The notes under the pieces are model-generated. The model was given only the letters and a program-made list of their open reading frames with translations. It was not told the origin of the DNA and did not search any database. Positions 22,964 through 28,107 of a stretch of DNA of 64,000 nt are shown piece after piece. The stretch spans positions 62,001 to 126,000 of the forward strand of contig CALVAD010000004.1 of NCBI GenBank assembly GCA_944325495.1, given 5' to 3'. Within the stretch, counting starts at the first letter, position 1; each line of letters opens with the position of its first letter. The stretch is from an uncultured Bacteroidales bacterium. Its GTDB lineage: Bacteria; Bacteroidota; Bacteroidia; Bacteroidales; UBA932. The position numbers were made by a program, and so were the translations under genes.

Positions 22964-25138
22964 TTACAGCGGCTTGAAGGCTATCGCGAATCCTCCTCCC
23001 GGAGCCATCCGTATCTTGAGCTTGTCCTTCGCGGTGACTTTCCTGCTCGTGATCTCGTAGGCCTGGGGGTTGGTCCTGTAGTGCGCGTCGGGAGCGTCCG
23101 CATAAATCTCCGCCCTGAATCTGCCTTCTCCGAGGAAGTCGAGACTGATCTCGAATTCGCGGGCGTTCTCGTCGGTCACACCGCCGCAGAACCACATTCC
23201 GTCATCCTTGGCTTTTCTCGCCACGATTATGTAGTCGCCGGGTTCGGCACAAAGATAGCGACTTTCGCTCCAATCCAAAGCGACATCCTTGATAAATTGG
23301 AAGGCGTCCATGAATTCGGCGTAATGTTCCGGGGTGTCCGCCGCCATCTGCAGAGGGGAATACATGGTCAGATAGAGGCCGAGCTGGTTGGCGATGGTCG
23401 CGTTCACATGCGAGTTGTTGCCGCACCACTCCTTGAGATTCTGCTCGAAGATGCCCGGAGTGTAGTCCATGGGGCCGCCGTTGAGGCGGGTGAAGGGCAG
23501 GATGGTCACGTGCTTGGGCTGGGTGCCTCCGAAGGCCTGGTATTCGGTGCCGCGGGCCGATTCGTTGCCTATGAGGTTGGGATAGGTCCTGCACAGTCCG
23601 GTGGGGCGCACCGCCTCGTGGGCGTTGACCATTATCTTGTGCTCGGCGGCCTTCTTCACGGCATAGAGGTAGTGGTTCACCATCCACTGGCCGTAGTGGT
23701 ACTCTCCGCGGGGGATGATGTCCCCGACATAGCCGGACTTCACGGAGCTGTAGCCGTACTTGTTCATGAGTTCGTAGGCCGCCTCCATGTGGCGCTCGTA
23801 GTTGCGCACCGAGCTGGAGGTCTCGTGGTGCATTATGAGCTCTATGCCCTTGGAGTGGGCGTATTCGTTGAGGGCCGCGATGTCGAAGTCGGGGTAGGGG
23901 GTCACGAAGTCGAACACATAGTCCTTGCTGCAGTTTGCCCAGTCCTCCCAGCCTATGTTCCAGCCCTCCACGAGCACGGCGTCGAAGCCGTTCTCCGCCG
24001 CGAAGTCGATGTACTGGCGGACTCTCTCGTTGTTCGCGGAGTGCTTTCCGTTGGGCTTCGCCGTCGCGTAGTCGAAGCTGTCCAGCTTGACGGAGGTCGC
24101 GTCGGTGTAGGCCCAGGTGCCGTAGCCGGCGATCATCTCCCACCACACGCCCATGTATTTGACGGGTTGTATCCAGCTTACGTCATCGTATGCGCAGGGT
24201 TCGTTGAGGTTGAGCACGAGGCGGCTCGCGAGCTGTTCGGTCGCGGATTCCGCCACCTGCACGGTTCTCCAGGGGGTGTTGCAGGGGGTCTGCATATATC
24301 CCTTCCAGCCCTGTGCGTCGGGAGTCAGCCAAGAGCGCAGCACATGCGTCTTTCCGTCTACGAGCAGATGCATGCAGGGATAGTCCACGAGGGCGGCCTC
24401 GTGTATGTTGATGTAGAGTCCGTCGTCGGTCTTCATCTGGAAGGAGGTCTGCACGCCGCTGGTGCTGAAGAAGGTCTGCGAGCTGTTGCCCACCACCTGC
24501 TTCTGGAAGTTTTCGCTGATCTCTGAGAGACGGCATTCGCCGTATTCGTATTCCTGCGTGTCATAGTCGCCCGGAATCCACCAGCTGAAGTGGTCGCCGG
24601 CCATCGCGAATTCGGTCAGTTCCTCCTTGATCACGAAATAGGTCAGCGGCTGGCCGGAGGGGAACTCGTAGCGGAAGCCGAGGCCGTCGTCGAAGAGGCG
24701 GAAGCGGATGTTCATGAGTCTGCCGCTTTCTGTCTGGCGCAACATGACGAGCAGTTCGTTATAGTGGTTGCGAATCTGCGACTCTTCTCCCCAGACGGGT
24801 TCCCAGACTTCATCGAACGAGTCCGTCTCGGTGCCCGTGAGCTCGAAGCCCTCGGCGAAGGAGTAGCATGGCTTGAGGTCGGTCTTGGTGATCTCGTCGC
24901 CGTCGAAGGTGATTTTCTCGGATTTCACAGTGCCGCGCAGCTCGAAGCCCAGAAGGCTGGGGAGCACGACATCGTCGCCCTTGTGGGTCAGTGAATACTT
25001 GGGGACGCCTCCCTTTTCGAGCATGAAGCTGAGCTCAAGATTTCCGTCGGGGGATTTCAGCGTGGCGGCGGGTCCGTTGCCGCCGTATGCCTGCAGTCCG
25101 GAAATCAGTGCTGCGAGGGCGAGCAGTATCTTTTTCAT
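22964..25138 (-). CDS. susB: GH97 alpha-glucosidase (SusB-like)
   Basis: A 724-residue GH97 enzyme with a signal peptide ([17 protein letters not shown]). The N-terminal beta-super-sandwich and the barrel are both present. Inverting GH97 enzymes use Glu residues that are all visible: [23 protein letters not shown], and [18 protein letters not shown]. That places it with the inverting SusB alpha-glucosidases, not the retaining alpha-galactosidase branch, which has Asp/Gly there. It releases glucose from malto-oligosaccharides in the periplasm. The start overlaps the stop of the double GH13 gene by 4 bases. Confidence 0.94.
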
Positions 25139-28107
25139 CGGTATTCTATGATTATGCTTGATTTGGCTGGTATTGTGCAGTGTTCGGGGTCGAAGGTCTC
25201 GCCGGTGAGGATGTTGCGTCCTTCGCCGCTCAACCTGCCGGTGAACTCGGCGTAGTCGGCCCAGGGCAGTTCGCGAGGCTCGGAGTTGTTGTTGATATAG
25301 ACGAACACGGCCTGGTCGTCAGTGTATCTGAAATAGGCGTAGGTGTTGTCGCGGGTCAGGAAATGCAGGGTGCGGCCGTTCTGAACCGCATCGGAGGTCT
25401 TGCGCCAGTTGAGCAGGGCGCTCACATAGTCGTGCATGTCCTTCATCACGGGATTCTTCTCCCAGCCGATGGGGAATTCCACGCGCAGTCCTCCGTGGCC
25501 CTGCGAACGGTCGCGGGAAACGACCATCAGCTCGTCGCCGCTGAATATCTGGGGATATCCGCGCAGCGTGGCCATCAGAGTCATGACTATCTTCTGCTTG
25601 CGGGGATCCTGCCCCACGATGTCGCCGATGCGCTCGGTGTCGTGGTTGCCGGGGAAGATCATCATGTTCTGCGGGTCATGATAGTACTGGTCGTTGGCCA
25701 TGGAGTTGTAGACCTTGGTGATGCCCTCGTCCCAGCTCTCGCGGTCCGCGTTGATGCCGGCGGTTATCGCGTTGAGCAGCGGAAAGTCCATTATCGACGG
25801 AAGGTTGGAGTCGAAGCCGTCGCGGTTGGGGTTCCCCGTCTGCCAGTAGGCGACTTCGGGCACGTTGCCGGACCACACTTCGCCGACTATGTTGAAGTTC
25901 GGGTATTCGGTGCGCACGGCCTTGCACCATTCGGACATCGGCACCTTCTCGTTGTAGGGGTAGGTGTCCACGCGGAAGCCGTCGAGGTCGGCCCATTCGA
26001 TCCACCATACCGCCCACTGCTTGAAATACTGGAGCAGCCAGGGGTTGTCGAGGTTCATGTCGACCATCGAGGTGTCGAACCATCCGCTGGTCATGTTGAC
26101 GCGGTCGATTTCGGCGCAGTAGGGGTCGTTCTGTGCGGAGAACGCGCAGTTGGAGTGGGTGTATTCGGGCCACTGGTGAACCCAGTCCTCGAACGGAAGG
26201 TCCTCCATCCACCAGTGTCTGTCGCCGCAGTGGTTGGTCACTATGTCCATGATCACCTTGAGTCCGTGTCCGTGGGCCTGGGCCACCATCTCGCGGTATT
26301 TCCAGTTGCTGCCGAAGCGGGGGTCGATATTGTAGTAGTCGGTGCAGGCGTAGCCGTGGTAGGAGGATTCCGGCTCGTCGTCCTCGAGCAGAGGAGTGCT
26401 CCAGATTGCGGTGAAGCCGGCGTCCGCGATGTAGCCGAGCTGGTCCTCGATGCCCTGGATGTCCCCTCCGTGGCGGCCGAAGAATGCATCGTAGTCGGCT
26501 TTTTCGGTCGTCATAGGGCTGTTGTCGTTGGTCGGATCGCCGTTCACGAAGCGGTCGGGCATCAGCAGGTAGATCGCGTCGGCGGTGCCGAAGCTCCTGC
26601 GCTCGGCGGAACCTTCGCGGCGCGCGAGTATCTCGTAAGGCCTGCGCAGGGTCTGTCCGTCCTTGCTGAACACGAGGGTGTAGGTGCCGGGCTGCGCGTT
26701 TTCCGAAATCTCCATGTCCACGAACAGGTAGTTCGGGCTTTCCGCCTTGTGGACTCCGGCAACTCTCACGCCTTTCCCGCCTTCCACCGTCACGTCCCAT
26801 CCGGAGATGCCTTCGCCCTGGACGAGCAGCTGGAGTCCGGTCTTCATTCCGACCCACCAGCACGGAGGTTCCACGCGGCTAATCAGGTCGGCCGGGCTGC
26901 TGACGCTCCATGCCCACGGGGCTTCGAGCTGCACGCTTACGGTCACTTCGTCGCCTGCGTTGCTGCGCCTGAACACGAGGGTGTTGTCGTCGGTGGAGAG
27001 TATCTCGAACTCTCCCTCACCGGCGTTGAGCGCGGGATGGGAGTGCTTGAGCTGGCCGAGTTCGCGGTAGAAGTCGGTCACGGCGTTGGTCTTCCAGTCA
27101 AGTATGGGGTCCTTCTCGAAGAATTCGAAGCTGTGGTCGTAGCCTATCTCCTGTCCGGTGTAGATCAGCGGCTGCGTGTTGGGAAGGGTCCAGCAGAGCA
27201 CGGTCATGGCCTTCCACGCATCGCCCATGCGGTCGAATTCTGTACCGCTCCATGAGTTCTCGTCGTGGTTGGAGGTGAACGCGAGCCTCAAGGCGTCGGC
27301 GGGGTATTCGCCGGCGTTCCAGGCGATGTAGCTCGTGAGGCTGTCGGCATCGGCACGGCCTTGGGCTATGTCGTTGAGCAGATGGTGCAGCTTCCAGGAG
27401 TAGGTCGCGTCGAAGCCGGCCTCGTGCAGCCAGGCCTCCTCGCCTTCGGCAAGGAAGTAGAGGTCGCCGTATTCGCTGCGGAACTTGCCGATAACGTCGG
27501 ACCAGAAGTCCTGCGGCACCAGCGAGGCCATGTCGCAGCGGAAGCCGTCCACTCCGCGGTCGAGCCAGAAGCGCATGCTCTTCTCCATCTCGGCGCGCAT
27601 CTCGGCGTTGTCGTAGTTGAGCTTGGCGATGTCGGTCCAATCATATTCGACTATGGTCCTGCCCTGCTCGTCGCGCACATACCACGAAGGGTCCTTCTCC
27701 GTCACCCAGGGGTGGTCGGGAGAGGTGTGGTTCGCGACCCAGTCTATGATGAGCCTGAATCCGAGTTCGTGCGCCTTCGCGAGGAAGGCGTCGAAGTCCG
27801 CGAGCGTGCCGAATTCGGGGTTGACGTCGCAGTAGTCGCGTATGGCGTAATAGGAGCCGAGCGTGCCCTTGCGGTTGAGCTCGCCTATGGGGTAGGGAGG
27901 CATGACCCAGAGAATGTCGACTCCGAGTTCCTTGAGTACGGGCAGCCTTTCGGCCGCGGCGGCGAAGGTTCCCTCGGGGGTCATCTGCCTGATGTTGAGT
28001 TCATAGACCACGGAGCCGCTCTTGTAGCCGGCGGCCTCCGGTCCGGTCTGCCGGCCGCATGAGACGGCGAGCAGCGCGAAACTGATGAGAAGCAGGAGTT
28101 TTTTCAT
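25135..28107 (-). CDS. Lipoprotein with two GH13 catalytic domains (amylase fused to SusA-like neopullulanase)
   Basis: A 990-residue protein with a lipobox (LLAVSCGRQ, Cys17). The first GH13 barrel spans about 30-400 and has its own triad: D192 in [10 protein letters not shown]221 in [10 protein letters not shown]282 in SNHDENSW. A beta domain like the N-terminal module of cyclomaltodextrinases/SusA covers about 405-500, followed by a second GH13 barrel with D714 in [11 protein letters not shown]743 in IVGEVWSGN and D823 in GNHDTERIG, plus a C-terminal beta domain. Both sites look intact. SusA of Bacteroides has only the second half, so this is a fusion. It lies 15 bases after the GH53 gene. 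No frameshift or stop interrupts the junction. Confidence 0.9.

Follow-up and report, generated by a model that had tools for sequence, protein, structure and literature searches.

A predicted lipoprotein joining a GH13_48-type and a SusA-like half in a Sus-type operon of an uncultured Bacteroidales bacterium

SusA of Bacteroides thetaiotaomicron is a separate periplasmic protein with an SPI signal, which converts pullulan into panose and opens cyclodextrins (PMC11633381); in its structure (PDB 9fyz) as in that of the cyclomaltodextrinase from Flavobacterium sp. No. 92 (1h3g), an N-domain is followed by a barrel and a C-domain. Another subfamily of glycoside hydrolase (GH) family 13, GH13_48, is represented by the structures of two single-barrel maltogenic amylases, AmyB from Thermotoga neapolitana (4gkl) and the amylase from Lactiplantibacillus plantarum (3dhu). 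Most members of this subfamily are reported to have a plain A-B-C organization, the L. plantarum enzymes to be exo-acting and maltogenic, and the closest subfamily to be GH13_38 (PMC11239784). One chain with two starch-active catalytic domains, the amylase first, has been described in ApuB from Bifidobacterium breve UCC2003 (PMC11286577). Here we describe a gene that combines relatives of the first two kinds of enzyme, located in a stretch of 64,000 nucleotides from an uncultured Bacteroidales bacterium (contig CALVAD010000004.1; the whole stretch is called the window below).

The product of this gene has something in common with each of these systems. Its first half bears the marks of GH13_48 found in 4gkl and 3dhu, and differs from them by a short domain C and by the second catalytic half that follows. 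The latter has the domain order of SusA and of the Flavobacterium enzyme; however, it comes after another barrel, in a chain that starts with a lipoprotein signal. The likeness to ApuB is one of description. Both catalytic domains of ApuB belong to GH13, but ApuB is extracellular and its second domain is an alpha-1,6 pullulanase, whereas the second half of the fusion is nearest to cyclomaltodextrinase and SusA; we therefore rejected the idea of an ApuB-type amylopullulanase. With ApuB, the presence of two starch-active catalytic domains in one chain is already known, and the pairing of a GH13_48-type with a GH13_46-like domain is a new combination of known enzymes. Such a fusion was not found in searches of the open-licence PMC literature, which does not imply its absence from print as a whole, and the accessible parts of the subfamily papers on GH13_48 (PMC11239784) and GH13_46 describe no second attached catalytic domain.

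We consider it fairly probable that the protein is a bicatalytic enzyme which trims imported maltooligosaccharides, encoded in a Sus-type operon and derived from adjacent amylase and SusA-like genes. The elements of this proposal that can be read in the sequence are the single open reading frame (ORF), the intact and conserved triads, the purifying selection, the operon, and the tandem unfused genes of relatives.

One reading frame, two GH13 sites

The gene is one ORF of 990 amino acids, whose only stop codon is at its end. Its parts are the following (strand and basis in brackets).

25135-28107 (minus): whole fused gene, with lipoprotein signal, GH13_48-type barrel, shortened domain C, SusA-type N-domain, GH13_46-like barrel and C-domain (ORF, Pfam, PDB matches, model)
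28057-28107 (minus): signal peptide and lipobox, residues 1-17; the predicted lipidated Cys17 is followed by GRQTGPE, without an acidic cluster (sequence)
27028-28026 (minus): first (beta/alpha)8 barrel, residues 28-360, GH13_48-type (Pfam, PDB matches, alignment, models)
27532-27534, 27445-27447 and 27262-27264 (minus): triad of the first barrel, D192, E221 and D282 (conserved contexts)
26896-27027 (minus): short domain C closing the amylase half, residues 361-404; it keeps the opening strands and the final APWxW strand but lacks about 30 residues of the usual domain between them (alignment; strands in models)
26617-26877 (minus): SusA/cyclomaltodextrinase N-domain, residues 411-497 (Pfam PF09087)
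25411-26565 (minus): second barrel, residues 515-899, GH13_46-like (Pfam, PDB matches, alignment, fold)
25966-25968, 25879-25881 and 25639-25641 (minus): triad of the second barrel, D714, E743 and D823 (conserved contexts)
25144-25368 (minus): cyclomaltodextrinase C-terminal domain, residues 914-988 (Pfam PF10438)

The first-pass annotation of this DNA, made from the letters alone, described a single lipoprotein with two complete GH13 active sites, an amylase-type barrel being joined to a SusA-like half that has its own N-domain. The analysis bears this out. The N-terminus ends with a lipobox (LAVSC17) of the lipoprotein type, and the two triads are exactly at the residues that had been named, in conserved GH13 contexts (GFRCD, LAE and NHD around D192, E221 and D282; GFRVD, VGE and NHD around D714, E743 and D823). 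Pfam recognizes Alpha-amylase in two stretches, Cyc-maltodext_N at 411-497 and Cyc-maltodext_C at 914-988, while a phmmer search of the PDB matches residues 32-394 to 3dhu and about 406-988 to 1h3g and SusA (9fyz). AlphaFold gives a good model of the whole chain (pLDDT 87.3, pTM 0.87) and a very good one of the first half with its short domain C (pLDDT 91.4, pTM 0.89). The third-position GC content around the join (0.85, 0.80, 0.84) has no break. Opposite the fused gene, on the plus strand, an antisense frame of 691 codons is open from 25180 to 27255; it is most likely a by-product of the high third-position GC content (0.84-0.85).

The top PDB relatives of the first half are 3dhu and 4gkl, both by sequence and by fold. 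All four residue marks of GH13_48 that we tested are present, which suggests that this half is of the GH13_48 type. The cysteine that is a feature of the subfamily (PMC11239784) is C191, and it is found in all 49 fused and all 83 unfused amylase rows of our alignments. Conserved sequence region (CSR) V ends in L-[DN], here L163-N164 (LN in 41, LD in 7 and MD in 1 of the 49 fused rows), and CSR-VII is closed by GQ, here G318-Q319 (GQ in 46, AQ in 3). Last, D159 aligns with Asp135 of the T. neapolitana enzyme, a residue of the non-reducing-end site, and is Asp in every one of the 49 fused rows; the equivalent of Asp135 is present in 290 of 304 GH13_48 sequences, is not conserved in other subfamilies and is a Glu in the GH13_38 enzyme (PMC11239784). 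As for the canonical A, B and C domains, the barrel is present, and domain C falls short of that of full-length relatives by about 30 residues. GH13_49 was also considered for this half and rejected: an Asp is expected there before the proton donor, but the residue is Ala220 (Ala in 49/49 fused rows), and CSR-II should end in [WY]-[GA], but the window has Ser195-Leu196. The six commonest types at positions 195-196 of the fused rows are YQ, FQ, SQ, GE, SL and YI (42 of 49 rows).

The second half is closest, again by sequence and fold, to the Flavobacterium cyclomaltodextrinase, to SusA and to the GH13_46 enzyme from B. cellulosilyticus (1h3g, 9fyz and 9dcq); in the fold alignment the identity is 40-41% with 1h3g and 3edd and 34-35% with 9fyz, for a target TM of 0.91-0.92. 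Several marks of GH13_46 are present: an N-module homologous to that of the Flavobacterium No. 92 enzyme (PF09087; the alignment with 1h3g starts at 409), the triad D714, E743 and D823 (DED in 44/44 fused and 87/87 unfused rows), the pair W701-W702 and the aromatic Y-[GSP]-Y end of CSR-II, here Y716-P717-Y718 (both in all 44 fused rows). Two other marks deviate. The CSR-V motif MPDLN, almost invariant in GH13_46, is replaced by MVDMN in the window; fused rows have MPDMN (24), MVDMN (18) or MADMN (2) and never MPDLN (0/44), which occurs in 6 of 87 unfused rows. The Glu that follows the proton donor in the GH13_46 logo, described as unique to that subfamily, is Val744 here; this position is V in 26 and C in 18 of the 44 fused rows, and Glu in none of them and in 1 of 87 unfused rows. 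Both deviations are common to most rows, fused or unfused. Because of them we call the second half GH13_46-like, GH13_46 being its nearest subfamily, and do not file it as a member.

Conservation, spread and origins of the fusion

Both triads are invariant in an alignment of 44 full-length fused proteins, and among the fused forms retained in our trees the DED triad is found in 49 of 49 amylase halves and 44 of 44 SusA halves. Nei-Gojobori dN/dS ratios, calculated for 12 pairs, range from 0.03 to 0.15 for the first half and from 0.03 to 0.12 for the second; both halves are under strong purifying selection. That one of the barrels is a non-catalytic binding or scaffold module, as might be imagined from the reduced domain C of the first barrel and from the existence of non-enzymatic members of GH13, rBAT and 4F2hc (PMC11239784), is very improbable in view of this selection and of the triads, which are intact in every fused row examined. 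The first-pass annotation had named lack of activity of one barrel as a possible objection to its claim; loss of an active site was not seen in any of these rows. It is also quite unlikely that the first barrel is an alpha-glucosidase or a glucanotransferase from the region of GH13_38, TreS or GlgE instead of a maltogenic amylase. TreS and GlgE are indeed among the lower-ranked sequence and fold matches of this half, and GH13_38 is described as the nearest subfamily (PMC11239784), but 3dhu and 4gkl come first by both measures, and the invariant Asp159 is typical of GH13_48 where the GH13_38 enzyme has Glu. The other objection that had been foreseen, an assembly or sequencing error which joins two genes, could be fed by the fact that the named sources are metagenome assemblies. 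We regard its probability as negligible: the 177 loci that were fetched contain 52 distinct fused sequences (at least seven of them ended by contig edges), which come from independent genomes and several hosts; the same kind of junction is seen in diverged fused sequences, and there is no break in composition.

Fused and unfused forms were told apart by reading the open frames in all fetched loci. In a survey of the genus, the fusion is present in at least 48 of 300 genomes: 44 rows cross the join in one frame without stops, and four genomes with larger differences at the join (G231, G305, G016 and G084) are fused on reading their DNA. Frame reading confirmed 36 of these 48, and the other 12 are based on search-row alignment only. 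Six further genomes of the genus with join-spanning rows came from the family sample. The 79 loci on named contigs were chosen by similarity, so that their counts are not prevalences: 43 are fused, 33 have separate amylase and SusA-like ORFs, and 3 have a SusA-like ORF only. The nearest named relatives of the genus are Candidatus Cryptobacteroides, and the window's genome finds its best named matches in Candidatus Cryptobacteroides merdipullorum (93%) and C. avistercoris (90%). The sources of the named fused sequences include cattle, goat, yak, horse, deer, buffalo and poultry samples.

Outside the genus, no fusion was found among the matches listed at E <= 1e-200 in 398 genomes of the family (where the join-spanning rows are all from the genus itself), at E <= 1e-100 in 393 genomes of the order, and at E <= 1e-170 in 296 genomes of the phylum; these sets are samples, in which weak fusions could be missed. 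Two long frames of the order sample (G641 and G626) proved to be split genes. Thirty-two places with open frames of about 930-1,180 amino acids were considered as further fusions; only G231, G305 and G084 are fused, and the rest were not seen to be. A plasmid search returned 877 records, 21 of which have one place covering at least 80% of the query. Among five rows that were viewed, H3 and H5 have pieces in both halves, but their span of about 1.1 kb corresponds to one barrel.

In unfused relatives, the same two enzymes are encoded by separate tandem ORFs; the amylase gene mostly comes first, and the SusA-like gene has its own signal peptide. Examples are the loci L085-L087 and records labelled Alistipes or Rikenellaceae such as L088-L109, while the order is reversed in L018, L019, L026 and L161. 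The comparison suggests that the genes were joined nearly end to end, with loss of the amylase stop codon and of SusA's own signal peptide. In the window and in most fused forms, domain C is shortened in the same way, the first strands and the terminal APWxW strand being kept and some 30 residues between them gone. We rejected the idea that the fusion truncated the domain C of the window type: since the stand-alone amylases of L011, L085 and L136 already have this internal shortening and end a few residues past the APWxW strand, the short domain C need not stem from the fusion. Other types of junction exist, with a full domain C (L010, L142) or with none (L038, L041). In L038 and L041, which are identical to L134 and L135, there is hardly any sequence between the last helix of the first barrel and the SusA N-domain.

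The neighbours of SusA-like genes are not always the same. Two tandem GH13_48-type amylase ORFs precede the SusA-like gene in 19 of the 79 named loci, in relatives labelled Alistipes or Rikenellaceae (L069-L073, L076, L077, L095, L098-L102 and L104-L109), and in L144, L145, L147, L148, L151, L152 and L174 the preceding gene encodes a different amylase, about 30-32% identical to that of the window. Judging from the latter loci, the partner of SusA is variable within the genus.

To trace the history of the fusion we built trees of the SusA half (131 rows) and of the amylase half (132 rows), from which rows more than 97% identical, partial rows and rows below the score limits were left out. Fused forms are scattered in the SusA-half tree and placed differently in the amylase-half tree. 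In both trees L010 and L142, the fusions with a full domain C, cluster with unfused rows, so that they are most simply explained by a separate fusion and a single origin of all fused forms is unlikely. L008, a lone long branch, also lies with other unfused rows in both trees and is perhaps a third fusion. By the simplest count, the fusion arose at least twice; one early fusion followed by many losses is formally possible, because the tree counts changes without giving their direction. The unfused L078-L081 fall inside or beside the fused clade of the window and may be fissions.

The two halves do not always tell the same story. In L005, L007, L044, L050, L056 and their kin, the SusA half groups with another lineage than the amylase half. 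For L005, L007 and L050, the amylase halves belong with the window to a wholly fused clade (the starred branch), whereas the SusA halves lie elsewhere. Approximately unbiased (AU) tests were run on 44 of the 131 rows for the SusA half and 41 of the 132 for the amylase half, hand-picked after the trees had been seen, which makes the p-values post hoc. Forcing the SusA halves of L005, L007 and L050 into the window's clade is worse by 222 log-likelihood units (p-AU 4e-43). For the amylase half, placing the L005/L007/L050 lineage with the window's subclade is not rejected (p 0.50), nor is grouping all rows of fused clades 1 and 2 (p 0.13), whereas excluding this lineage from clade 1 is rejected (p 0.018). 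In sliding windows of identity, L005 resembles the window up to about residue 480; beyond that, the unfused L012 and L151 often have the higher identity, above all at 501-600 and 821-920; there are ties at about 701-800, and the window is closer or equal at about 581-680 and, against L012, at 901-960. The simplest account would be an exchange of the second half inside the fused gene of this lineage; a second fusion event is a possible alternative.

Operon, location and proposed function

The fused gene lies in a series of genes of the same strand.

21005-22924 (minus): GH77 4-alpha-glucanotransferase (domain search)
22964-25138 (minus): GH97, SusB-like, the next gene, whose ATG overlaps the stop codon of the fusion (domain search, sequence)
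28123-29355 (minus): GH53-like predicted lipoprotein, directly upstream of the fusion (domain search, PDB match)
29352-31346 (minus): SusG-like amylase with CBM58, two genes upstream of the fusion (domain search)
31417-32949 (minus): SusE/SusF-like lipoprotein (domain search)
32965-34542 (minus): SusD-like lipoprotein (domain search)
34557-37643 (minus): SusC-like TonB-dependent transporter (domain search)
37592-38974 (minus): major facilitator superfamily (MFS) sugar transporter, upstream of SusC (domain search)

A SusC/SusD pair, a SusE/F-like, a SusG-like and a GH97 gene are thus co-directional around the fusion, as in the Sus system, which is what is expected of a Sus-type starch operon. 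In its longest version the SusC frame shares 52 bases (37592-37643) with the end of the MFS gene; an internal Met (MKRILTLL...) is the likelier start. At least one of SusC, SusD, SusG, GH97 and GH77 is found on the same strand in 37 of the 43 fused named loci (counted by eye). The genome of the window, which is 89% complete, has eight Pfam Alpha-amylase matches, distributed over the fused gene, the SusG-like gene and two further frames; there is no second SusA-like match among those listed.

Lipoproteins of Bacteroidetes are exported to the surface by a signal made of a Lys or polar residue and at least two acidic residues soon after the +1 Cys (PMC5080379). The sequence C-GRQTGPE of the fused protein has no such signal. 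Two or more D/E at positions +2 to +7 are present in 0 of 39 fused proteins, against 21 of 34 SusD-like and 19 of 22 SusE-like proteins (GH97, 0/19; SusG-like, 4/16). These counts depend on a simple regular expression for the lipobox and on guessed start codons, and leave out unrecognized proteins (recognized: fused 39/44, SusD 34/42, SusE 22/28, SusG 16/42, GH97 19/23). Since the acidic signal is absent from the fusion and common in the SusD and SusE homologues, the fused lipoprotein probably faces the periplasm, which would suit a SusA-type role.

We propose that SusG would cut starch outside the cell, and that SusC would import branched and linear maltooligosaccharides. The first barrel would release maltose at non-reducing ends, while the second would cut alpha-1,4 bonds beside branches and open cyclic chains, which would provide new ends for the first. 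In the operon of the window, GH97 would then complete the breakdown, with glucose as its product, and sugars may be taken up by the MFS carrier. Being tethered, the two activities would have a fixed ratio and a fixed place, and faster coupled turnover is possible. The GH13_48 and GH13_46-like assignments support the suggestion, made in the first-pass annotation, that two different alpha-glucan GH13 types share one predicted lipid anchor, and also the contrast it drew with the separate SusA of model Bacteroides, that of B. thetaiotaomicron being periplasmic with an SPI signal (PMC11633381). By analogy with the exo-acting, maltogenic relatives of the first half and with the action of SusA on pullulan and cyclodextrins, its word "complementary" is plausible; on the contrary, nothing was found to support "processive-like", and "starch degrader" is doubtful, since the SusG-like protein is the likely surface amylase and the fusion more likely acts on oligosaccharides in the periplasm.

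Several observations weigh against this proposal. The predicted specificities of both halves are transferred from relatives at 26-41% identity, and the second half departs from GH13_46 at the two marks described above. The two sites may overlap in activity, because PersiAmy1, a GH13_48 enzyme from rumen metagenome screening, is reported to cut pullulan (PMC11239784). In the whole-chain model, the relative placing of the two barrels is tentative. As regards location, five of the 44 fused proteins have no recognized lipobox, among them L008, which has no Cys in its signal; the test of the export signal is weak, because low scores are also obtained for the SusG-like proteins, which should be at the surface, and the motif was defined in other Bacteroidetes and may not be that of this genus. 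Finally, among the 43 fused named loci GH97 was found beside the fusion in only 15 and GH77 in 18, and in the lineage of L056, L060, L062, L066 and L084 the roughly 10 kb downstream showed neither gene, so that the partners of the proposed hand-over to GH97 do not share an operon in every case.

If the anchor held both barrels outside the cell, they would jointly attack polymeric starch. A predicted lipoprotein in a Sus operon could be of this kind, the stand-alone SusA-like proteins of relatives often have a lipobox (44 of 92 by the regular expression), and most SusG-like proteins of these loci lack the acidic signal too. We nevertheless find a surface location unlikely: the export signal requires acidic residues after the Cys (PMC5080379), which no recognized fused lipoprotein has in the number seen in SusD and SusE, a Pfam search found no starch-binding module in the fused protein, and the operon has its own SusG-like gene. 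It is quite possible, on the other hand, that the fusion brings no kinetic gain and merely equalizes the expression and the location of two independent enzymes. The join is a short end-to-end link, the genes are separate and in tandem in 33 of the 79 named loci, and they are there already adjacent and probably co-expressed; however, at least two fusions by the simplest count, and an architecture kept despite the apparent exchange of the SusA half, hint that joining is favoured. One could go further than the trimming role that we favour, and suppose that the joining of an exo-maltogenic to a SusA-type site was itself selected, having arisen at least twice, perhaps three times, in one genus and survived the replacement of its second part, and that the two sites, on the side of the outer membrane that faces the periplasm, pass branched maltooligosaccharides to each other as a coupled trimming unit, in place of the diffusible SusA of model Bacteroides. 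This extension is tentative and, to our mind, rather doubtful.

If the location and the activities of the trimming enzyme are as we propose, the Sus pathway can have its periplasmic part gathered in a single anchored enzyme, and this happened more than once in an uncultured lineage of the gut and rumen. Because fused, unfused and apparently half-exchanged forms exist in close relatives, they form a natural experiment on whether branched starch fragments are turned over better when two glycoside hydrolases are tethered. Regarding annotation, neither "alpha-amylase" nor "SusA" is by itself an adequate name for such proteins, and a count of GH13 genes overlooks their second site.

Last, we note the GH53-like protein encoded at 28123-29355. 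Its nearest PDB match is the endo-galactanase 7osk, with which two Glu-containing motifs are aligned. No homologue was seen beside the 43 fused named loci; the 16 other fetched loci that have one, upstream of the amylase gene, are without exception unfused. A starch polysaccharide utilization locus of Xylanibacter ruminicola is also listed with a GH53 (PMC11107044).

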